The notes under the pieces were generated by a model. The model was not told the origin of the DNA. It ran no database searches and saw nothing but the letters and a program-made list of their open reading frames with translations. Shown here piece after piece: positions 16,838 to 26,708 of a DNA stretch of 64,000 nucleotides. The translations under genes were made by a program, and so were the position numbers. The DNA is from Mesorhizobium sp. ZC-5 (lineage in GTDB: Bacteria; Pseudomonadota; Alphaproteobacteria; Rhizobiales; Rhizobiaceae). The stretch is taken from NCBI RefSeq assembly GCF_025753855.1, contig NZ_JAOWPT010000010.1, positions 62,001-126,000 of the forward strand, read 5' to 3'. Each line of letters opens with the position of its first letter. The first letter of the stretch is position 1.

Positions 16838-17929
16838 CTAAGCGGAGTACCGCCGAACAATCGTGTCGGTGGCCGGCATCGCCTCGCCGTAGGGTTCCGC
16901 CCTATGCGCGTCATGACGCGCAATTGCACGGCGAACCAGCGGCGCGACGGTGTGACCGAACGCGGCGAGCTCGTCCGCCGTTTCGAAACCGTGCAGATGA
17001 AAATCCGACACCCCGATGTCGGCATAGTCAAGAACCGCCAGTGCGACCTGTTCGGCGGAACCGGCCACCGTTGTGGCCGATTTGCTCGGGGCGTCCGGAT
17101 CGCGTGCCAGATTGTCTGCAGCCAGCCGGCGAAGCCGCTCATCGTCGGTCCATCCCGAGAAACGGTCGGCCACGAGGAAGGTCCTGCGTTTTATCCCGTT
17201 TCCTGCCTTGTTGGCGGTACGGCCCAGCTTCTCCCATGCCTCTTCCCGCGTTGCCGCGACCACCGGACGCACCGGATAGGAAAAGCGGATGGCATCGGCG
17301 CGGCGATGACATGCAGCCGCGGCACGGACCCGCGCGATCGTCTGACGCGTCTCGTCGACGGTCGCCGCCGGTAGCGCGAAGATGTCGGCATGGCGGGCAG
17401 CCACCTTGATCGCCGTGCCGGAAAGGCCGGAGAGCGAAAGTGGTATATGGCTGCGCTGGAACGGCTTGGCCGCGCTGAAAGCGCCGGTAATGCTGTAATG
17501 GCTACCTTCGTGATCGATGGGCTTTTCGTTGGCCCAGAGCCGCTTCAGGAGCACCAGATACTCGTCGACCCGGGCAAGACCTTCTTCATGCCCCTCGATG
17601 CCATCTGTCTTGTCGGATTCGAACTGGACCCTCACCCGTCCGCCGCTCAACTGATCCAGGGTGGCGAGATGCTGCGCGGCGATCGTCGGAGCCACGGCAC
17701 CTATGCGATGGTTCAGGAAAACGCCAAGGCTCGATGTGTTGTGCAGAATGTAGGATGCGAGGGCGGCCACGTCCTGACCGGCGGCAAGGCCGCCAACGGC
17801 CAGTCTGTCGATGCCCGAGACTTCGGCCAGCCTGCCCAGCCGGCGAAGGCCATCACGGTCGACCTGAGCACCGGCTTCATTTGCAGAAAGCGTCAGGTTT
17901 GCGGTGTGTCCGATGAATTCGATCTGCAT
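16838..17929 (-). CDS. LLM-class flavin-dependent monooxygenase, SsuD-like
   Basis: This is a 363-residue luciferase-fold (TIM-barrel) oxidoreductase, probably using FMNH2. It opens with MQIEFIGHTANLTLS and contains HNTSSLGVFLNHRIGAVAPTIAA, the family segment LDQLSGGRVRVQFES and later SLSGLSGTAIKVAARHADIF, features of the SsuD/nitrilotriacetate monooxygenase group. ATG 17929 is preceded by GAGGAG; an open frame runs 58 codons further upstream but has no family sequence. An organosulfonate substrate would suit the nearby sulfate genes but is not shown. The 3' end faces the FAD gene, 39 bases away. Confidence 0.85.
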   Translation of the reverse strand: MQIEFIGHTANLTLSANEAGAQVDRDGLRRLGRLAEVSGIDRLAVGGLAAGQDVAALASYILHNTSSLGVFLNHRIGAVAPTIAAQHLATLDQLSGGRVRVQFESDKTDGIEGHEEGLARVDEYLVLLKRLWANEKPIDHEGSHYSITGAFSAAKPFQRSHIPLSLSGLSGTAIKVAARHADIFALPAATVDETRQTIARVRAAAACHRRADAIRFSYPVRPVVAATREEAWEKLGRTANKAGNGIKRRTFLVADRFSGWTDDERLRRLAADNLARDPDAPSKSATTVAGSAEQVALAVLDYADIGVSDFHLHGFETADELAAFGHTVAPLVRRAIARHDAHRAEPYGEAMPATDTIVRRYSA

Positions 17930-18018
17930 GCAATCTCCTCCATTTGTTACGCCGATACGCAATACGCTTGAAATGCCGTTATTCTCCAGATGGAGCTGTC
18001 GCCGGCAGTGCGACGCGT

Positions 18019-18162
18019 TCAGTGGCCTATGAAGCCGAACACCAATGCGGCTGAAAATCCGACCGCCAGCAGGAAGGTCGCCTTGCAGGCGACGTCCCGC
18101 CACGAGGAGACGCGTGGGCGGGCAGTGACTTGACGATTGCTCGCCTGGGAAAGGAACGTCAT
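18019..18162 (-). CDS. Small single-span membrane protein (47 aa), unknown
   Basis: A 47-residue reading frame starts at ATG 18162 and is preceded by a clear GGAGG ribosome site five bases upstream. The N-terminal half is basic and polar (QASNRQVTARPRVSS) and the C-terminal half is one hydrophobic helix (ATFLLAVGFSAALVFGFIGH). It lies 89 bases upstream of the monooxygenase in the same orientation and may share its transcript. No family was recognised. The strong ribosome site, the single membrane helix and the lack of any other gene here support it as real. Confidence 0.65.
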   Translation of the reverse strand: MTFLSQASNRQVTARPRVSSWRDVACKATFLLAVGFSAALVFGFIGH

Positions 18163-18326: not shown

Positions 18327-19220
18327 TCAGCGTTTCAGATTGACCACGATGACGCCGCCCAGCGCCAATGCACCACCCAGGATGCCGACCATTCCAGGGA
18401 CCTCGCCCAGCCAGAGGAAACCCATCGCCGTGGCGACCGGGGGCACGCAATACATGAAGTTCGAGGCGCGGGAAGCGGGCAGGCGCGAAAGCACGACGGC
18501 CCAGGTGCCATAGGCAACGAGGCTCGGCACGATGCCGAGATAGACTGCAGCAAACAGCGCCTCGCTATTGGCAGCCGCCACCTGGTCGAGCCCGCTGAGC
18601 AGGACAGGCGACAGGAAAACCGCTCCGATAACCATGTTCCATGCTGAAACCGTGAGCGCCTTGTGGCGCTTGAACAGCGGTTTCTGCACGATCGTCGAAA
18701 AGCTGTTGCAGAACGCAGCGCCAAGAATGAGCAGGGCGCCGTGGTCGACCCGCAATCCATCGCCTTCACCCAGCGCGATAAGCCCTATCCCGGCGAAGGA
18801 GACGAAGGTGCCGATCCATGCAAGCAACGGAAAACGCTCGCCGAGCAGCATCATGGCAAGTGCCGCCGTGATGATCGGATTGACGTTGATGATGAAACTG
18901 GCGGCGCCTGCCGAAACGGTCAGTTCGCCGAAGTTCAGGAGAACCGTGTAGAAACCGACGAAGACGATGCCTCCGAACGCGAAGCGCCAGATTTCGTTGA
19001 GCGCCGGCAGCGCCGGGCGCATCGCAAGAAGAAAGAGAGCGGCAGGCACGGCGGCAATGGCGAAGCGGACCGCACCGAGTTCGGCCGGCCCGAATGCCGT
19101 CAGTCCCGCCCGGATTGCCGGAAATGCCGACGCCCACGCCACCACCGTCACTACGATGGCGATGGTGGTTGTCATATCGAACGATCGCGCGGTCGGAGTT
19201 GCCAGGGCATTTACGGTCAT
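18327..19220 (-). CDS. EamA/DMT family transporter
   Basis: This 297-residue inner-membrane protein has ten predicted spans arranged as two EamA repeats, the first beginning at TIAIVVTVVAWASAFPAIRAG and the second near GALLILGAAFCNSFSTIVQ. Typical repeat features are FIINVNPIITAALAMMLLGE and YCVPPVATAMGFLWLGE. Members export amino acids or metabolites, and the substrate here is unknown. ATG 19220 is the best start; ATG 19175 is an alternative. It is divergent from a LysR regulator with a palindrome between them, so it is probably that regulator's target. Confidence 0.88.
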   Translation of the reverse strand: MTVNALATPTARSFDMTTTIAIVVTVVAWASAFPAIRAGLTAFGPAELGAVRFAIAAVPAALFLLAMRPALPALNEIWRFAFGGIVFVGFYTVLLNFGELTVSAGAASFIINVNPIITAALAMMLLGERFPLLAWIGTFVSFAGIGLIALGEGDGLRVDHGALLILGAAFCNSFSTIVQKPLFKRHKALTVSAWNMVIGAVFLSPVLLSGLDQVAAANSEALFAAVYLGIVPSLVAYGTWAVVLSRLPASRASNFMYCVPPVATAMGFLWLGEVPGMVGILGGALALGGVIVVNLKR

Positions 19221-19275
19221 GAAAAACTGATCCTTGAGTTTGTGTTGGCAGGAGTAGGCTCTTGCCCGAGCTGAT

Positions 19276-19300
19276 TGACAATCGAATAATTCGATGGTCA
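19276..19300. promoter_or_regulatory. Palindromic operator candidate between the EamA and LysR genes
   Basis: The 15-base core ATCGAATAATTCGAT (19281-19295) is a perfect palindrome about its central base. It is flanked by TGAC (19276-19279) and GTCA (19297-19300), extending the symmetry to 25 bases with one mismatch. It contains the T-N11-A arrangement of LysR sites and sits just before the LysR start at 19310. Confidence 0.65.
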
Positions 19301-19309
19301 GCTGTGAGC

Positions 19310-20233
19310 ATGGATCACAGCTTGGCACCCGTTCTCCCACTCGAAACATTGCGTGCCTTCGAGGCCGCCGCCCGTACCGGAAGCTTTTCTTCCGCCGCCG
19401 AAAAGCTGAATGTGACGCATGGCGCGGTCAGCCGACAGATTGCCAAGCTTGAGAGTTGGCTGGGGCTGCGGCTGTTCGAACGCGGCGCGCGCGGCGTCGT
19501 GCTGACCAGCGAAGGACAAAGGCTGTTTCTTCGCACCAGCGAAGCGTTTGCGCTGATCGCCGACACTTCGGACCGCTGGAGCGAACCGCGCGGCGCTGCC
19601 GTGGTGCGTGTCAGTTCGATCCCGTCTGTGTCAGGCCTCTGGCTGATCCCCAGGCTGTCGCGCTTCGAGGCAGGCTCTCCGCCACTTCGGATCGTCCTGC
19701 ATGTCGACCACCGCCAGACCGACCTCGGCGACGAGGGTATCGACCTGGCGATCCGCTGCGGTCGCGGCGCCGTCCACGGCCGCATCTCCTTGAAACTTTT
19801 CGAGGAATGGTGCTTTCCGATCGCCACGCCGGAGCTTTCTGAAAGGGTCGGCGACGGCGCGCCCGCGCGGTTGCTGGACTTCCCCTTGATCCACGATTCA
19901 GATGCGTCGGGGTGGCGGGCGTGGTTCGGTGCTCGGCAGATCGATTACCGGCCGAGGCCGCAGGACCGGCGGTTCGAGGACTACAATCTGGTGCTCGACG
20001 CCGCCGCGCACGGCCTGGGCATAGCCTTGGCCAGGCCGCCACTGACAGAGGAATTGCTGATGTCTGGCCGACTGGTCAGCGTCGATGCAAATACCGTATT
20101 GAATCCAGTGTCCTACTGGCTAGACCGTCCCGTTGGCCAACCGCGGCAGGCAGCGATGGAACTGGCAAGGCGGATCGGTGCGGAGGCAGGCTTAGACCCT
20201 CGCAAGGTGGAAAATTTCCTCTCCGGAGGCTGA
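19310..20233 (+). CDS. LysR family transcriptional regulator, GcvA-like
   Basis: The 307-residue regulator has an N-terminal winged helix (LETLRAFEAAARTGSFSSAA, then LNVTHGAVSRQIAKLESWLG) and a periplasmic-binding-like effector domain beginning about residue 90 (VRVSSIPSVSGLWLIPRLSRF). The family is the GcvA/AmpR type. I start at ATG 19310 because the upstream in-frame codons (from 19262) run through the 25-base palindrome. Expected target: the divergent EamA exporter and itself. Confidence 0.88.
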   Translation: MDHSLAPVLPLETLRAFEAAARTGSFSSAAEKLNVTHGAVSRQIAKLESWLGLRLFERGARGVVLTSEGQRLFLRTSEAFALIADTSDRWSEPRGAAVVRVSSIPSVSGLWLIPRLSRFEAGSPPLRIVLHVDHRQTDLGDEGIDLAIRCGRGAVHGRISLKLFEEWCFPIATPELSERVGDGAPARLLDFPLIHDSDASGWRAWFGARQIDYRPRPQDRRFEDYNLVLDAAAHGLGIALARPPLTEELLMSGRLVSVDANTVLNPVSYWLDRPVGQPRQAAMELARRIGAEAGLDPRKVENFLSGG

Positions 20234-20355: not shown

Positions 20356-20964
20356 TCAACAGAGCGAGACTATCTGACGAACCAGATCGGCCTGCCGGCG
20401 GCAGCCAGATTTTGCCAGCACGGTCTTCAGACGCTGGCGGACGGTAGAGAGGGCCGCCTTGCGCCGATCAGCGACATCGGCAAGCGTCTGTCCCTGGGCG
20501 AGCGAGAAGACCAGTTCCGCCTCGGCCGGCGTGAATTTGAGGGCGTCGGAAAAGGCGGCGACCTGCTGCGCGCTCGGCGTCTTGTTGGTCCGGCCAATCT
20601 CCACGAAGATTATCTCCGACGCTATTTCGGCCGCATCCAGCGACCGTCGCAATACCTCACGATAGAGGCCCTGTGGATTATGGATCGTCACCGCGAACCA
20701 ATCCATTTCGCAACTGCCGGCGAGGACGAACACTTCCTCCTCTGTGAGGGAAGTCCGGAGTTTCTCCAGCCCGGTGAAATATTGCTGATTGTGGCGCGGA
20801 TCTGTGAAAATCAGGCGGTTGCCGAAGACGCTTATCGGTGCTCGCGCTTCAAGAAACGCCAGAGCCCGCCAGTTGGCGTAGGCGATCTCGCCATTCCGCG
20901 CGTCGATGGCGAGAGAAGCCTCGCGCCAATCGGGACAAGCCAGCGCCAGAACCTCCCTACCCAT
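20356..20964 (-). CDS. LuxR-type HTH regulator with PAS-like N-terminus
   Basis: This is a 202-residue protein. The first 120 residues resemble a degenerate PAS sensor (SLAIDARNGEIAYANWRALAFLE, FGNRLIF). The last 60 form a GerE/LuxR-like helix-turn-helix: FTPAEAELVFSLAQGQTLADVA followed by STVRQRLKTVLAKSGCRRQADLVR. No receiver domain is present. It is divergent from the SARP-like regulator with 268 bases between starts and may act on the same promoter region and on the YcaO/TfuA genes; that is inference from position. Confidence 0.8.
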   Translation of the reverse strand: MGREVLALACPDWREASLAIDARNGEIAYANWRALAFLEARAPISVFGNRLIFTDPRHNQQYFTGLEKLRTSLTEEEVFVLAGSCEMDWFAVTIHNPQGLYREVLRRSLDAAEIASEIIFVEIGRTNKTPSAQQVAAFSDALKFTPAEAELVFSLAQGQTLADVADRRKAALSTVRQRLKTVLAKSGCRRQADLVRQIVSLC

Positions 20965-21048
20965 TCATACTCCCTGTCTCACCTGCAGCAAACAGCGCAG
21001 CCGAACCGCCGCCTCGCGACGGATTTCCGAGTCAGAGACACGCCAGCC

Positions 21049-21061
21049 AACGTGACACGTT
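21049..21061. promoter_or_regulatory. Palindrome AACGTG-A-CACGTT between divergent regulators
   Basis: A perfect 13-base inverted repeat about one central base, 84 bases upstream of the LuxR-type start and 172 bases before the SARP-like start. GTGAC also recurs just to its right. It is a plausible operator for one of the two divergent regulators; nothing else supports it. Confidence 0.4.
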
Positions 21062-21232
21062 CGTGACTCCGGGCGTTGCCGACGCGCAGTCGGGATTGCG
21101 AAAAATTCAGTTCCGGGGTGATTTTGCCGGATGGCTTTTTTAACCAGCGTGGAGTTACAAAACCGGGTACCGTCGGCGAGTGATTGGCAGACCTTTTTTG
21201 CCCTGGATTCAAATAACAAGAACCGGTCCGAT

Positions 21233-23158
21233 ATGCAGGATGAGCAGGTATTTTCCCTGAAGCTGTTTGGCGCACCCGCGTCAAGCCGGCCTCAGGCCGG
21301 CTTTGCCTTCCCCGCAAAGGGCTATCAACTCATCGCGCTGGCCCTCCTGTCGCCTTCCCGGCGTCTCACGAGACAGAAGGCAGCGTCGCTGCTATGGGAA
21401 AACGCCGGCGAAATCGAAGCATTCGCCAATCTTCGCCAATTGCTGGTGCGCATTCGTCGTGCCTGGCCGCCGGAACGTCCGCTGATCGAGAGTGAGGGTC
21501 CACTGCTGATCGCCGGGCCGGGTGCGGAAGATTCCGATCTCGCGGTGTTTCTCAAAAAGCACCAATCGCAAGCCGTGGAAGAACTGGTCAATGCGATCAA
21601 GATCTTCGACGGCGACCTGCTTGCCGGCGCTAGCGACTCGAATGGCGAGTTCCATTTGTGGTTGCTCGGTGAACGCACCAAGCTCAAGGACCGATTCTTT
21701 TCAACGGTCGCGACTGCCCTGCTTGAACTCACCCGCTACGGACGCGCCAAGGAGGCCGATCTGCGGACGATCGCGGAGCACGCGCTCGCCGCCGAACCGG
21801 AACGTGAACAGACCTATCGCATGCTGATCGAAGCTTATGGCCGCAACGGACTGTTCGAGCCGGCCAAGCGCCTTTACACCAACCTCACCGAACTTTTGAA
21901 GCGGGAGTTCTCCGCAAGCCCCTCACCCGAGACGGCTGCGGTGGCACGGCGCATCTTTGCTTCGGCGCGCGACCATATTGAGACCGCAGTTTCCGCCGAG
22001 CGCAATCCCCGCACACAGCCGCGCGTGGCGTTCCTGCCCCCGGAACTACCGCGGGAGGGAGCCAGCCCGGAGTTGATCCCGGCCCTGGTGCGCGAAGTGG
22101 CCAACGAGTTGTCGCGCTACCGTACCTTCAAGGTGATCGCGCCACATTCGAGCTTCCAGATCGTCCAGCCGGACAGCGCCCCGGATTTCAACCAGGTAGG
22201 CGCGCAATATGCCGTCAGCGCGATGCTGATCCCATATTCAAAGGTGCTCTCCTGCCGCCTGGCCAGAACCGACACGGGCGAAATCATCTGGGCCGGCGAA
22301 TTCCCGGCTGACGACCAGAAGCTGGCGCATGCTTTCCGCCTGCTTTCTCACCAGACGGCGGCATCGATGGCACATGCGATCGAGCGCGATCGGCTGGACG
22401 ACAACCATCGACAGCACGACGGCGCCGCCTATCTGCGTTATCTCGAGGGCCAAATCAGCCTGCAGAACTGCGATCTGCCCCGCCTCAGACGCGCGCGCTC
22501 GTCATTTCGCGAAGCTGCCGCCACCGATCCCGATTTTTCGGCAACGCGCGCGAAAATCGCCCAGACCTTCCAACTCGAATGGCTGATGCTTGGCGGCAAC
22601 GACCCCGATCTTCTGCTGAAGGCGCGCGCCGAGGCACGGGCCGCCGTCTCGCTCGATCCCGGCGCCGGCGCCGGCCATTGGATGGACGGTGTGGTCGCGC
22701 TTTACCAGCGCGACTTCGACAGTTCGGCGGAGAGCTTCGCGGTCGCCGAGACACTCAACCCCCACGCACCCGATTTCCTCGTGCAATACGCCGACGCGCT
22801 TTATCTGATGGGCGAAGTCGATGCCGGGTGGGAGCGCTTCGAGAGCGCGGTGGAACTCAATCCGCTGGCACCCGATCACTATTGGTGGGTCGGCGCCAGC
22901 ATCCTCTTCAACAAGCGCGACTTCAGCGGCGTCATCGAAATGTGCGGACGTATGAAGTCGGACGAACCGGTGATGCGCGTGCTGGCCGCCACGCACGCTC
23001 TTGCCGGGAATCTGGAAACTGCGCGGCTCTATGGCAAGCGATTGATGGAAAACTATCCGGGAACCACCGCTGCGGCTTTGGCATCGGTACCGCCATACAA
23101 GCACGAAGCGGGTAGGCAAATGCTTCTGGAAGGTCTCCGATTGGCGGGGATCAAGTAG
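21233..23158 (+). CDS. SARP/BTAD-like transcriptional activator with TolB-like and TPR regions
   Basis: This is a 641-residue regulator. Residues about 5-90 look like the winged-helix DNA-binding part (SLKLFGAPA, then RRLTRQKAASLLWENAGE with LRQLLVRIRRA). About 100-250 is a bacterial transcriptional activation (BTAD) helical region with AEHALAAEPEREQTYRMLIE. About 275-390 resembles the TolB-like part found after adenylate-cyclase-type regulators (LVREVANELSRYRTFKVIAP). The rest is helical, TPR-like (FAVAETLNPHAPDFLVQYAD). ATG 21233 is chosen over an in-frame start at 21131, whose extra residues look non-coding. It stands 13 bases before the next gene, so it probably leads and activates the YcaO/TfuA operon. 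Confidence 0.85.
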   Translation: MQDEQVFSLKLFGAPASSRPQAGFAFPAKGYQLIALALLSPSRRLTRQKAASLLWENAGEIEAFANLRQLLVRIRRAWPPERPLIESEGPLLIAGPGAEDSDLAVFLKKHQSQAVEELVNAIKIFDGDLLAGASDSNGEFHLWLLGERTKLKDRFFSTVATALLELTRYGRAKEADLRTIAEHALAAEPEREQTYRMLIEAYGRNGLFEPAKRLYTNLTELLKREFSASPSPETAAVARRIFASARDHIETAVSAERNPRTQPRVAFLPPELPREGASPELIPALVREVANELSRYRTFKVIAPHSSFQIVQPDSAPDFNQVGAQYAVSAMLIPYSKVLSCRLARTDTGEIIWAGEFPADDQKLAHAFRLLSHQTAASMAHAIERDRLDDNHRQHDGAAYLRYLEGQISLQNCDLPRLRRARSSFREAAATDPDFSATRAKIAQTFQLEWLMLGGNDPDLLLKARAEARAAVSLDPGAGAGHWMDGVVALYQRDFDSSAESFAVAETLNPHAPDFLVQYADALYLMGEVDAGWERFESAVELNPLAPDHYWWVGASILFNKRDFSGVIEMCGRMKSDEPVMRVLAATHALAGNLETARLYGKRLMENYPGTTAAALASVPPYKHEAGRQMLLEGLRLAGIK

Positions 23159-23171
23159 CGAGGGGAATCCC

Positions 23172-23582
23172 ATGAGCGACGCAAAAATGTTCGTCATCGG
23201 AGACAGCGAAAGCGGGCTGTATCTGATCAAGACCAAACCGGTAAAGATCGTACGCATCACCAAGGATGCGATCGAGCAATACGCACAGAAAAAGGGGATG
23301 TCATACGAGGCGGTGTTCGGGCTGCTCGCGGCTCGCACCCGAAGGATGGTCAATCTGGGTCAAAATAATCCGCCACCACTGCCGGACGACCCAGCTTTCT
23401 TCGACACGCTCGGCTTGGCGGTCGCCGGCGGAACCACCCTTTCCGAAGCGGAATTCTGCTTCGTCGCCGACGTCGACAACGCGCTCTACCAAGCGACGCG
23501 CGACAAGGTCGACCCGATCAAAGGGGCGTTGACCAAGCTCAATACCGGGCCCTCGGGATATGAGGATGCCGATTTCGACTGA
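23172..23582 (+). CDS. 136-residue protein of unknown function; candidate RiPP substrate or partner
   Basis: I recognise no family. The protein begins MSDAKMFVIGDSESGLYLIK and appears mixed alpha/beta in the first 60 residues, with a helix AIEQYAQKKGMSYEAVFGLLA. The middle is Pro-rich (NNPPPLPDDPAFF). The C-terminal part ends in an acidic GYEDADFD. There is one cysteine (EFCF) and several arginines. It lies 13 bases after the SARP-like gene and overlaps the ycaO start, so it is firmly in the operon. It could be a large precursor peptide for the YcaO/TfuA enzymes, or a recognition or immunity factor. It is longer than most precursors. Confidence 0.75.
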   Translation: MSDAKMFVIGDSESGLYLIKTKPVKIVRITKDAIEQYAQKKGMSYEAVFGLLAARTRRMVNLGQNNPPPLPDDPAFFDTLGLAVAGGTTLSEAEFCFVADVDNALYQATRDKVDPIKGALTKLNTGPSGYEDADFD

Positions 23583-24816
23583 GCTGACAGAAACGAACAT
23601 TTTGCCAGGACGCGGCAAGCCGCGTCCTGTTTTGCATGATTGGAACCCGACATTGCTGGCTGACACGGTCGCTCGATGTCTGGCGCCCGATTTTCTGAAA
23701 CGGCTCGGCATCACGCGGGTCGGCGACTTGACCGGGCTGGACACGATCGGCCTGCCGGTATGGTTTGCCGTCCAGCCCAATTCCCGCACGCTCGCAGTGA
23801 ACCAGGGCAAGGGCCTGACCCACGACCAGGCGCGCATCTCAGCGGTAATGGAGGCGGCAGAATCGGCGATCGCCGAGCGACCTGAACGGTTGGTGGACCG
23901 CTATTGCTCGCTCAACGAGCTGATCGACGCCGGCGAGCAAGCGGTTCCACTTGGCCGCATGAGCGGTTGCATCTTCGATGCCTTCGACCCGGAGCGAGAG
24001 CGGGCCTGGGTGCCCGGCAGATCGTGGAAGACCGGCGAGCGCGTCTTTGCGCCCTACGAACTGATCGGGCTCGACATGAGAGTCGACGCGCCATGGGATC
24101 GCGACGCATTTCGTATCTCGTCGATCGGATTGGGCGCATCGACCAAATTCGAGCCTGCGGCATTGCATGGACTGCTGGAGGTGGTCGAGAACGACGGGAT
24201 CGCTCCGCTCGAAGCCTTTGACACGCTGGACGGCTTCGCGCGGCCGCTGAAATATCGTGCCGGGGTCCACGCGGGTCTCGATGAGGCGGTTGCCAAATGC
24301 GCCGCCGCGGGTTTCCAGCCGCTTTTCTTCGACCTGACCGGCAATGTGCAACTACCCGTCGCCGGCTGCTTTGTTCCGCGCGACGTGACCGGCAAAGCAG
24401 GACCTGGAACCCGCTATTCCGCCGGCTTCGCCTGCCGCTTCGACGCGTACGAGGCCGCACTTTCCGCATTGCTGGAGGCGGTTCAATCGCGGCTGACTCA
24501 CATTTCCGGAGCACGCGACGATATCGATCCGCCCGATTACGTGCCGTTTGCCCGGACCATACCGGCTCCACCGGCCGGTGTGCCGTCCATTGGTGAATTC
24601 GCGGCTCTATTCGAGACACAACGAGGCCCCACATTCGACACCGCCGCCAGGCTTGTCTGCCAATCCGGCGCAGAAGACATTTTTATCTTTCCGCTTTCCG
24701 GCGACAGCGAAGGCGTGCATGTCGTCAAAGTGCTGGTACCCGGCCTGATGGCGGTATTCGACGATGGCCTCGTGACCGCCGACGCCGGCATGATCGCCCG
24801 GCTGCTCGAGGATTAG
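23566..24816 (+). CDS. YcaO-domain cyclodehydratase/thioamidase
   Basis: YcaO enzymes activate peptide backbone amides with ATP to make azolines or, with TfuA, thioamides. The 416-residue protein has YcaO motifs in order: SAVMEAAESAIAER near residue 100, LHGLLEVVENDG near 200, and the ALSALLEAVQSRLT with GARDD region near 305, which is characteristic of TfuA-linked YcaO proteins. No E1-like or PqqD-type domain is fused. ATG 23566 overlaps the end of the 136-residue gene; ATG 23560 is equally possible. TfuA follows three bases after its stop. Confidence 0.92.
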   Translation: MPISTELTETNILPGRGKPRPVLHDWNPTLLADTVARCLAPDFLKRLGITRVGDLTGLDTIGLPVWFAVQPNSRTLAVNQGKGLTHDQARISAVMEAAESAIAERPERLVDRYCSLNELIDAGEQAVPLGRMSGCIFDAFDPERERAWVPGRSWKTGERVFAPYELIGLDMRVDAPWDRDAFRISSIGLGASTKFEPAALHGLLEVVENDGIAPLEAFDTLDGFARPLKYRAGVHAGLDEAVAKCAAAGFQPLFFDLTGNVQLPVAGCFVPRDVTGKAGPGTRYSAGFACRFDAYEAALSALLEAVQSRLTHISGARDDIDPPDYVPFARTIPAPPAGVPSIGEFAALFETQRGPTFDTAARLVCQSGAEDIFIFPLSGDSEGVHVVKVLVPGLMAVFDDGLVTADAGMIARLLED

Positions 24817-24819
24817 GCG

Positions 24820-25566
24820 ATGGCAAAAATCGTCTTTGCCGGCCCTAGCATATACGGAGTTGCCGCTGCCGAATTTTCCGGGCTGGATGTGCGACCGCCG
24901 GCCATCCGCGGCGACCTGCTCGCTGCGGCGTTCGAGAAACCGGAGCACATCGCGCTAATCGACGGATTCTTCGAAAACGCGCCTTCTGTCTGGCACAAGG
25001 AGATCCTGTACGCGCTTTCGCAAGGGATTGTCGTTTCCGGCGCGTCCAGCATGGGCGCGCTGCGGGCGGCGGAATGCGCCTCCTTTGGCATGGTCGGGGT
25101 GGGGAAAATCTTCGACGACTACCAAAGCGGACGGCGCAGCGCCGACGCCGATGTCGCGGTGACCCACGCACCGGCCGAACTGGGGTTCCGGCCGCTTACC
25201 GAGGCGCTTGTCGATGTCGAGGCGACGATCCGGGCGCTTCGGATCAATGGGCGGATCTCGGAAGCTGAAAGCAAGGAATTCGGGAGGGTCGCCGCGGAGC
25301 TGCATTTCAGCCGGCGAAGCTGGCCAACCATCCTGAATGCCGCAGAACTGCCGGAGATGCGGCGCGATGAGCTCAGGCATTTGCTCAAGAACGCGCGGCG
25401 CTCGCAAAAACAGGACGATGCGCGGGCATTGCTATCGGCACTGCGGCAGGGGGCGATCATCCGACCGGCCCATGCGATTGCCGCCTCTCAACTGGCACGC
25501 ACGCCATTCCTGGAAAATCTCAAGGACGAGATCCGCGCGCGGCCCGCGAGAGCACAGAACCGATGA
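24820..25566 (+). CDS. TfuA-like protein, YcaO partner
   Basis: TfuA proteins, first named from Rhizobium trifolitoxin loci, pair with YcaO and help install backbone thioamides, probably by supplying sulfur or stimulating YcaO. The 248-residue protein carries the family opening IVFAGPSIYG and the strongly conserved middle ALIDGFFENAPSVWHKEIL followed by GASSMGALRAAECASFGMVG near residues 70-95. The C-terminal half is helical and basic. The stop overlaps the start of the pentein gene as ATGA. I do not assign a tfx gene name because the rest of the trifolitoxin cluster is absent. Confidence 0.93.
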   Translation: MAKIVFAGPSIYGVAAAEFSGLDVRPPAIRGDLLAAAFEKPEHIALIDGFFENAPSVWHKEILYALSQGIVVSGASSMGALRAAECASFGMVGVGKIFDDYQSGRRSADADVAVTHAPAELGFRPLTEALVDVEATIRALRINGRISEAESKEFGRVAAELHFSRRSWPTILNAAELPEMRRDELRHLLKNARRSQKQDDARALLSALRQGAIIRPAHAIAASQLARTPFLENLKDEIRARPARAQNR

Positions 25567-26708
25567 GCACCGGTTCACCGGCTGTCTCGAGGCTGGTGCC
25601 GGATTGCGGCGGCGCCATCGAAGAGATCGCCATCGCGGTAGTGCCGGGATGTTTCGGCGACAACCTGCTTTTTCGCGCGCTGCTGGAAGCGCATGGCCAG
25701 TTCGCTAAAACCCTCCCGGAAAGCGTTCTGCTGCGCGTGCTCGGCACCATGTCGACGCGGGGCCGTATCGAGCGATGGCTCGACGGGCTCGGTCTCGCCT
25801 GCCGAACGGCTTTCGTGGAAGCGGACTTGAGCACTGCGGCCAGTAGTTCGGAGTTCTGGATGCAGGATCCGCTTCTTGTCTTTGAGCGTGCAGGCGGCGG
25901 GAAATATCTGCAGCAGGAATGCGAGAACCCCGGCGACCATGCAACCTGGTTGTCACGCGCCACCGGGGTTGCCGTTGAAAACGGGCACTTTCACCTGCCG
26001 GGTGGCAATTTGCTGGTGGGACCGGATTTCTGGCTGACCGGCCAGGACAGCATAGACCTGACCCAGGCAATCATCGATCGAAATGGAGAGACCGACACAG
26101 CTTTCGAGCGGCTGTCGGCGATCGACTCGCGACCGCTGTTCGTTGCAGGTTACGGCCACGGATCGCTGGTGGACGAGACGCCCCGCGCCGGGGTCTGGAA
26201 CGACCCATACCGGTTTCGCCAATATGGCGGCCATATCGATCGGTTCATTGCCGTAACCGGGCTGACCGCCGAAGGACGGCCTAAGATCGTCGTCGCGGAT
26301 GCCAAGCTCGGACCGGGTGGGCAGGCCGCTGAACTCGGTCCGGCGCCACAACGGCTCGACCGGACCGCTGAGCGGCTGGAATTGCTTGGCTTCGAGGTTC
26401 TGCGCAATCCGGTGCCATTCGTGCCGGCCATTGGCGACCGCCAGCTCAGGGCGCGACTCTACAACAATGTGCTGGTCGAGAACGAGATACGGAAGGGGCG
26501 CTCGAAACCGCTGGTGTGGCTGCCGCAATATGCCGATGCGGAGCCGGAACTGGCATGTTTCGACGCCGAGAATTCAACGCTGTGGGGGGACCTCGGCTTC
26601 GAACCGGTTGCAGCGCGCGGCTGGAGCAAATTGACAGTGGCGATGGGTGCCGTGCGGTGCGCGACAAAGGTCCTGAAAAGAAACCCCTCTTTCCGCTTCA
26701 CGCCATGA
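25563..26708 (+). CDS. Pentein-superfamily (peptidylarginine/agmatine deiminase-like) enzyme
   Basis: This 381-residue protein keeps the landmark sites of guanidine-modifying penteins in the correct order: FWMQDP (Asp102), LPGGNLLVG (147-152), YGGHIDRF (His224 and Asp226), YNNVLV near 300, and a C-terminal cysteine in MGAVRCATKVLKRNP (Cys366), where deiminases have their nucleophile. Such enzymes convert arginine-type guanidines to citrulline, or act as amidinotransferases or dihydrolases. Sequence outside the motifs is divergent, so the exact reaction is open. It is coupled by ATGA to tfuA, which suggests it acts on the same peptide or on its product. Confidence 0.72.
   Translation: MSTGSPAVSRLVPDCGGAIEEIAIAVVPGCFGDNLLFRALLEAHGQFAKTLPESVLLRVLGTMSTRGRIERWLDGLGLACRTAFVEADLSTAASSSEFWMQDPLLVFERAGGGKYLQQECENPGDHATWLSRATGVAVENGHFHLPGGNLLVGPDFWLTGQDSIDLTQAIIDRNGETDTAFERLSAIDSRPLFVAGYGHGSLVDETPRAGVWNDPYRFRQYGGHIDRFIAVTGLTAEGRPKIVVADAKLGPGGQAAELGPAPQRLDRTAERLELLGFEVLRNPVPFVPAIGDRQLRARLYNNVLVENEIRKGRSKPLVWLPQYADAEPELACFDAENSTLWGDLGFEPVAARGWSKLTVAMGAVRCATKVLKRNPSFRFTP

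Follow-up and report, generated by a model that had tools for sequence, protein, structure and literature searches.

A rare YcaO-TfuA-pentein operon in Mesorhizobium and other scattered soil bacteria as a candidate source of a thioamidated and citrullinated peptide

A 64,000-nucleotide stretch of the Mesorhizobium sp. ZC-5 genome (contig NZ_JAOWPT010000010.1, positions 62,001 to 126,000, hereafter the window) harbours five consecutive genes for a SARP-like regulator, a 136-residue protein, YcaO, TfuA and a pentein-fold enzyme (Table 1). With moderate confidence, we consider that this operon makes a ribosomally synthesised and post-translationally modified peptide (RiPP) of an undescribed family, its core receiving a thioamide from YcaO-TfuA and a citrulline from the pentein. 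In the proposed pathway the regulator would switch the operon on, probably through an 11-bp direct repeat, and the folded leader of the 136-residue precursor, about 90 residues long, would present a short core. YcaO, using ATP, would then activate a backbone amide of the core while TfuA helps to deliver the sulfur, giving a thioamide, and the pentein would convert the invariant core arginine, Arg110 in the window, into citrulline by deimination. Release of the core would fall to host peptidases, as proposed for the thiovarsolins (PMC6511847; published work is compared throughout on the basis of parts of the cited papers). We assign release to host peptidases because the five genes common to all loci include no protease or exporter. 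The order of the genes, their strict co-occurrence, the modelled pentein fold, the repeated cores, the invariant arginine and the operator-like repeat are observed here, while the two modifications, their meeting on a single core and the release of the product are inferred.

A co-inherited five-gene cassette

The gene set and coordinates given in the initial annotation of the window were confirmed, as were its claims of close junctions: in the order regulator, precursor, YcaO, TfuA and pentein, the genes are separated by a gap of 13 bases, an overlap of 23, a gap of 3 and an overlap of 4. The G+C content of the five genes and of the divergent regulator gene beside them (0.577-0.635) is near that of the window (0.613). 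The names given to the SARP/BTAD-like regulator, YcaO and TfuA likewise stand, with Pfam matches to BTAD, PF02624 and PF07812.

A pattern scan of one genome per species, covering 84,980 species, found the pentein encoded at 34 loci, in Rhizobium, Agrobacterium, Neorhizobium, Ciceribacter, Mesorhizobium, Roseibium, Stappia, Dongia and others. The order precursor, YcaO, TfuA, pentein is kept at all 34, and the regulator is present at 33, the contig of the remaining locus (L021) stopping at the precursor gene. In a tree of TfuA sequences the pentein-linked proteins form a single clade (support 100/99). The tree excludes L023 and uses only the C-terminal 270 residues of each protein; its 30 'other' rows, the top-scoring loci fetched from 87 genomes, include the window itself (L083), and ten of them have fewer than half of their positions occupied. 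This fixed co-occurrence, together with the single TfuA clade, establishes the five genes as a coherent, co-inherited cassette rather than a chance row, and as a distinct minority clade among YcaO-TfuA loci.

Within the family, the 136-residue protein occurs in 6 of 298 genomes including that of the window, the other five holding the full five-gene set, and a pentein profile finds the same six. Further carriers are two genomes of a Dongia-like group (G560 and G637) and a conjugative plasmid of Rhizobium daejeonense, while a plasmid of Neorhizobium sp. NCHU2750 gives matches to the precursor, YcaO and pentein in order (TfuA lay outside this check). Several of these genomes were met in more than one search; G147, for instance, corresponds to L014, and G334 to L016. 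In wider samples there were two matches among 284 genomes at phylum level, the window's genome and G334. At class level the pentein query matched 5 of 385 genomes, one of them weakly (G675, E 6.7e-4, with an internal stop), and the precursor profile matched 4 of 372, namely the window's genome and three Dongia-like genomes. The expectation that relatives would carry the pentein and the 136-residue gene beside YcaO-TfuA is thus borne out at the 34 pentein loci and in the Dongia-like and R. daejeonense carriers. Taken over all YcaO-TfuA relatives it is not, since TfuA is common in the family (87 of 298 genomes, versus 6 for the pentein) and most lack the pentein; among the best 30 TfuA loci of these 87 genomes, searched for 1.5 kb on either side, a pentein is present at the window's own locus only.

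The pentein, the precursor and the YcaO-TfuA pair

The pentein fold proposed in the initial annotation for P0008 was confirmed by profile-profile comparison (with a control) and by the predicted structure, though it is invisible to Pfam and NCBIfam, where P0008 has no family match at E<=1. Residues D102, H224, D226 and C366 are invariant in all 35 aligned rows, and the modelled fold together with this Asp, His-x-Asp and C-terminal Cys place the protein in the pentein superfamily. Agmatine deiminases are the nearest structures to the model; among the matches listed, ranks 1-38 are agmatine, peptidylarginine or putative arginine deiminases, with amidinotransferases first appearing at rank 39. 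At the sequence level, PAD_porph (PF04371) gave no match to P0008 at E<=1 and matched one of the 35 pentein rows at E 0.2, and a search of solved structures with P0008, as a single sequence and as a profile, found nothing.

These comparisons bear on whether the pentein makes citrulline on the core, or instead acts as an amidinotransferase, as an ornithine-yielding hydrolase or on a free guanidine compound. Such other chemistry could be accommodated by a fold common to amidinotransferases and DDAH, and by nearest structures that are small-molecule enzymes; moreover, the amidinotransferase VarS of the thiovarsolin cluster has no role assigned in the parts of its report used here (PMC6511847). 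The uninterrupted run of deiminases ahead of the first amidinotransferase argues for deimination, however, as does the invariant core arginine, an obvious substrate, and we regard the alternative as unlikely.

Distant pentein relatives without YcaO, at 25-26% identity, were found on Vibrio and Paenibacillus plasmids, and PF04371 does match the Vibrio protein. For the relative on a Vibrio maritimus plasmid (L050:7689-8855), the annotation shows no YcaO within 8 kb, and a gene for an S-type pyocin is close by. On a Paenibacillus polymyxa plasmid, a gene for a DNA/RNA non-specific endonuclease begins 16 bp after the relative (L048:9857-11173), and again the annotation shows no YcaO, here within 10 kb. 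Phage records and IMG/VR yielded no pentein relatives.

The product of the 136-residue gene, which the initial annotation listed as an unknown while hinting at its role, is likely the precursor on which the enzymes of the operon act. As is characteristic of RiPP clusters, a precursor gene with leader and core lies beside genes for modifying enzymes, and does so at all 34 loci. Single-core copies only are present at 32 of these, while L039 and L040 harbour tandem multi-core copies; natural precursors with one, four or five cores exist, a four-core one in Rhizobium sp. CSW-27, and the multi-core copies differ by a single 37-residue unit lost or gained. Tandem Repeats Finder resolved a 111-bp unit in 1.8 copies at L040, but at L039 an 8-bp repeat only, though the protein repeats there are plain. 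The core arginine is present in all 34 distinct rows of the precursor alignment, which leaves out the two multi-core copies. This column count is the independent figure: the count of 45 cores rests partly on the search pattern, because the pattern itself prescribes where Trp/Tyr, Arg and Pro must stand and, in tandem cores, also requires Asn before the Arg. Asn directly precedes the invariant arginine in most cores; the window core has Thr there.

Azoline formation was set aside as a modification, because no Cys, Ser or Thr of the core is conserved. Pfam and NCBIfam scans of the precursor gave nothing useful and matched no nitrile-hydratase-like leader family.

Structure models predict the leader as three strands plus helices. 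A PqqD-like RiPP recognition element (RRE) consists of three strands, then three helices. The predicted fold covers nearly the whole precursor chain, with a best mean predicted local distance difference test (pLDDT) score of 82.9. This would also suit a small folded protein, perhaps a cellular protein or enzyme partner, of which a loop is modified in place without cutting, much as YcaO acts on uL16 or McrA. The lack of a protease among the shared genes and the predominance of loci with single-core copies only agree with such a role. On the other hand, the five models disagree, their mean pLDDT falling as low as 52.4, and tandem copies that gain or lose one core-bearing unit better suit a core that is released; modification in place is, in our judgement, decidedly improbable.

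The first hairpin of the leader (window precursor residues 7-24, FVIGDSESGLYLIKTKPV) faintly resembles the core pattern, and MAFFT placed the repeats of L039b there. The hairpin is possibly an ancient internal repeat.

For YcaO-TfuA pairs, amide activation by YcaO and sulfur-transfer support by TfuA are established (PMC13174530, PMC13063428). P0006 harbours a full-length YcaO domain (PF02624, E 1.7e-48, 166.1 bits versus a cut-off of 25.7, profile positions 1-324 of 325), and P0007 matches TfuA far over the Pfam cut-off (PF07812, E 1.3e-42). Their genes adjoin in the window (3-bp gap) and at all 34 loci, as expected of a thioamide-forming pair. The NCBIfam equivalogs for the archaeal pair of McrA-glycine thioamidation, TIGR03266 and NF033432, scored below cut-off (113.4 versus 365 bits and 182 versus 235.2 bits, respectively). 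Across the whole genome of the window there is one YcaO match and one TfuA match, both at this locus. That the pair targets something else, for example ribosomal protein uL16, with the precursor-like gene incidental, would fit a sole YcaO and the thioamidation of uL16 beside Arg81 by Escherichia coli YcaO (PMC13063428), but is very improbable for a cassette too rare for a housekeeping role (6 of 298 family genomes) and with a precursor gene at 34 of 34 loci. In a Dongia mobilis metagenome-assembled genome (L023:7180-7995), TfuA lies in two open frames, which may reflect either misassembly or decay of the gene.

Regulation and neighbouring genes

P0004 has the BTAD domain characteristic of SARPs. 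A winged-helix DNA-binding domain ahead of the BTAD domain was not reported for it, and its L036 homologue matches Trans_reg_C at E 0.089 only. Target promoters of SARPs contain direct repeats spaced by 11 or 22 bp, to which these regulators bind (PMC10936776), and a repeat with the 11-bp spacing is present here: CGTGACACGTTCGTGAC precedes the regulator gene in both the window and M. albiziae. More generally, the 11-bp direct repeat CGT[CG]A-N6-CGT[CG]A occurs upstream of the regulator gene in 28 of the 34 regions compared (the window and 33 loci), and when 13 other spacings were tried, none gave a match in any region; since the motif was first spotted by eye in the very sequences counted, the count is descriptive and the other spacings serve as its control. 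The overall rate of the repeat across these loci, upstream copies included, predicts 0.015 per region. It is missing upstream in L015, L016, L027, L031, L037 and L045. Independently of any motif, 27 of the 34 regions have 6 or 7 of 7 matches at period 11, compared with at most 12 at other periods from 8 to 23. Together with the binding habit of SARPs, the repeat makes it probable that the regulator activates the operon that encodes it, as a SARP would.

A divergent helix-turn-helix (HTH)-type gene does lie upstream, as the initial annotation had it, but the label 'LuxR-type' is the weakest of those given: its product P0003 has no curated HTH family over cut-off in Pfam or NCBIfam. Relatives of P0003 are found at 3 of the 34 loci (L014, L016 and L023), and at L056-L058. 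In 19 of 35 sets (the 34 loci and the window), the place upstream of the SARP gene that the HTH gene has in the window is taken by an unrelated divergent gene encoding about 150-200 aa (cluster 6; L036:2986-3594 and 18 further loci); its products share a RADDVG motif, and the one member scanned has no Pfam match. Cluster 8, in ten more sets, is probably an antisense frame of the cluster 6 gene.

Beyond the five genes, no gene cluster is common to more than 19 of the 35 sets, the flanking clusters being annotated in part only. A Cro/C1-type HTH regulator (cluster 5; L036:9217-9699 and 18 loci) follows the pentein gene in 19 sets, accompanied in 10 by a 95-aa partner (cluster 9); this regulator could belong to the system in that clade or be a frequent neighbour. 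In the window, genes for a luciferase-like monooxygenase and an EamA transporter (16838-18103 and 18327-19349) lie beyond the divergent regulator, as they do in M. albiziae. They are probably neighbours only, because they formed no cluster spanning at least four loci. A 20-kb stretch around the EamA gene of G059, a member of the same genus, holds no other tested window gene, so no empty site can be read there.

Table 1. Features of the operon and its upstream region (window coordinates)
Feature	Position	Strand	Basis
HTH-type (LuxR-like) divergent regulator P0003, 202 residues	20356..20964	-	No curated HTH family over cut-off; relatives at 3 of 34 loci and L056-L058
Candidate SARP operator, direct repeat CGTGAC-N5-CGTGAC, 11-bp period	21051..21067	+	Repeat counts upstream of SARP gene
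SARP-like activator P0004 (BTAD and TPR repeats)	21131..23158	+	Pfam BTAD E 1.1e-15, TPR_19 E 8e-6
Predicted precursor peptide P0005, 136 aa: leader of ~90 residues, one 22-residue core, short tail	23172..23582	+	Alignment, cores, structure model
Core segment of P0005, residues 94-115, EFCFVADVDNALYQATRDKVDP	23451..23516	+	Invariant Arg110 (codon 23499-23501), Pro115
YcaO amide-activating enzyme P0006	23560..24816	+	PF02624; exact start within 23-bp overlap unsure
TfuA, predicted thioamidation partner P0007	24820..25566	+	PF07812
Pentein-fold, peptidylarginine-deiminase-like enzyme P0008, 381 residues	25563..26708	+	Profile-profile comparison, structure model

Known systems and significance

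The components of the operon are of known kinds; within the open-access literature covered, their combination, this family of precursors and the pairing of a deiminase with YcaO-TfuA appear to be new. The citrulassins differ in their lasso peptide scaffold, and we know of no YcaO-TfuA pair there. Like the product proposed here, they carry citrulline made on a RiPP by a peptidylarginine deiminase (PMC12971885).

The claim that no system with this exact set had been described holds for the set itself, as the parts of the open-access literature covered contain no paper on YcaO-TfuA with a deiminase, on this gene set or on this precursor family. It does not hold for the combination of YcaO-TfuA, an arginine-bearing repeat precursor and a guanidine-group enzyme, which is known from the thiovarsolin (var) cluster of Streptomyces varsoviensis (PMC6511847). 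There, too, a YcaO-TfuA pair acts with a precursor of repeated cores, with an Arg in every repeat and a repeat number that differs among relatives, and the cluster has no specific protease and encodes VarS alongside. In contrast, var belongs to Actinobacteria, has an APR tripeptide core and includes genes for a heme-oxygenase-like dehydrogenase, an ATP-grasp ligase and an MFS protein, and the parts of the report used do not describe the order SARP, precursor, YcaO, TfuA, pentein (PMC6511847). The cores collected here by pattern contain no APR or GPR tripeptide, which sets them outside the thiovarsolin family.

A chemical parallel is offered by the Std pathway of Streptomyces thermodiastaticus, where YcaO-TfuA converts an Asn into its thioamide and the residue after it ends up as the ureido amino acid homocitrulline (preprint PMC13174530). 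Most cores here read Asn-Arg, and thio-Asn followed by citrulline would be the counterpart. Unlike the proposed citrulline, homocitrulline in Std arises from Lys by a carbamoyltransferase and is hydroxylated by an MNIO enzyme; the precursor motif is SNKEWQE, and the preprint, in the parts used, has no deiminase (PMC13174530). We take Std as no more than a lead to the position of the thioamide, because the window core has Thr, not Asn, before Arg. Tentatively, the loci could even represent a new RiPP class, in which a possibly RRE-like folded leader, fused to the core, would bring its own recognition domain, and YcaO-TfuA with a peptidylarginine deiminase would set a thioamide next to citrulline at the core N-R site, convergent with Std and SARP-switched in Alphaproteobacteria. 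Long folded leaders have a precedent in the NHLP-type YcaO precursors MprE and MprC, whose atypically long (81-residue) leaders present the core to YcaO, although these are helical bundles (PMC12455567), whereas three strands plus helices are predicted here.

Closest in taxonomy are the TfuA clusters of Rhizobium and Agrobacterium, of the same phylum and genera, mined in a 2021 survey (PMC8120280), the main text of which lacks the words deiminase, citrulline and SARP. That survey, its supplements or a 2020 survey of bacterial peptidylarginine deiminases may contain these loci unremarked. At the time of the 2021 survey, Proteobacteria had yielded no known thioamidated RiPP made by a TfuA-YcaO pair (PMC8120280). 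If our reading is correct, the operon would provide a small, defined system of one precursor and three enzymes for a peptide with a backbone thioamide and citrulline in this phylum, and would link a deiminase to YcaO-TfuA with its substrate residue named. The single-, four- and five-core precursors would be useful for enzymology, and the SARP switch might turn on silent loci.
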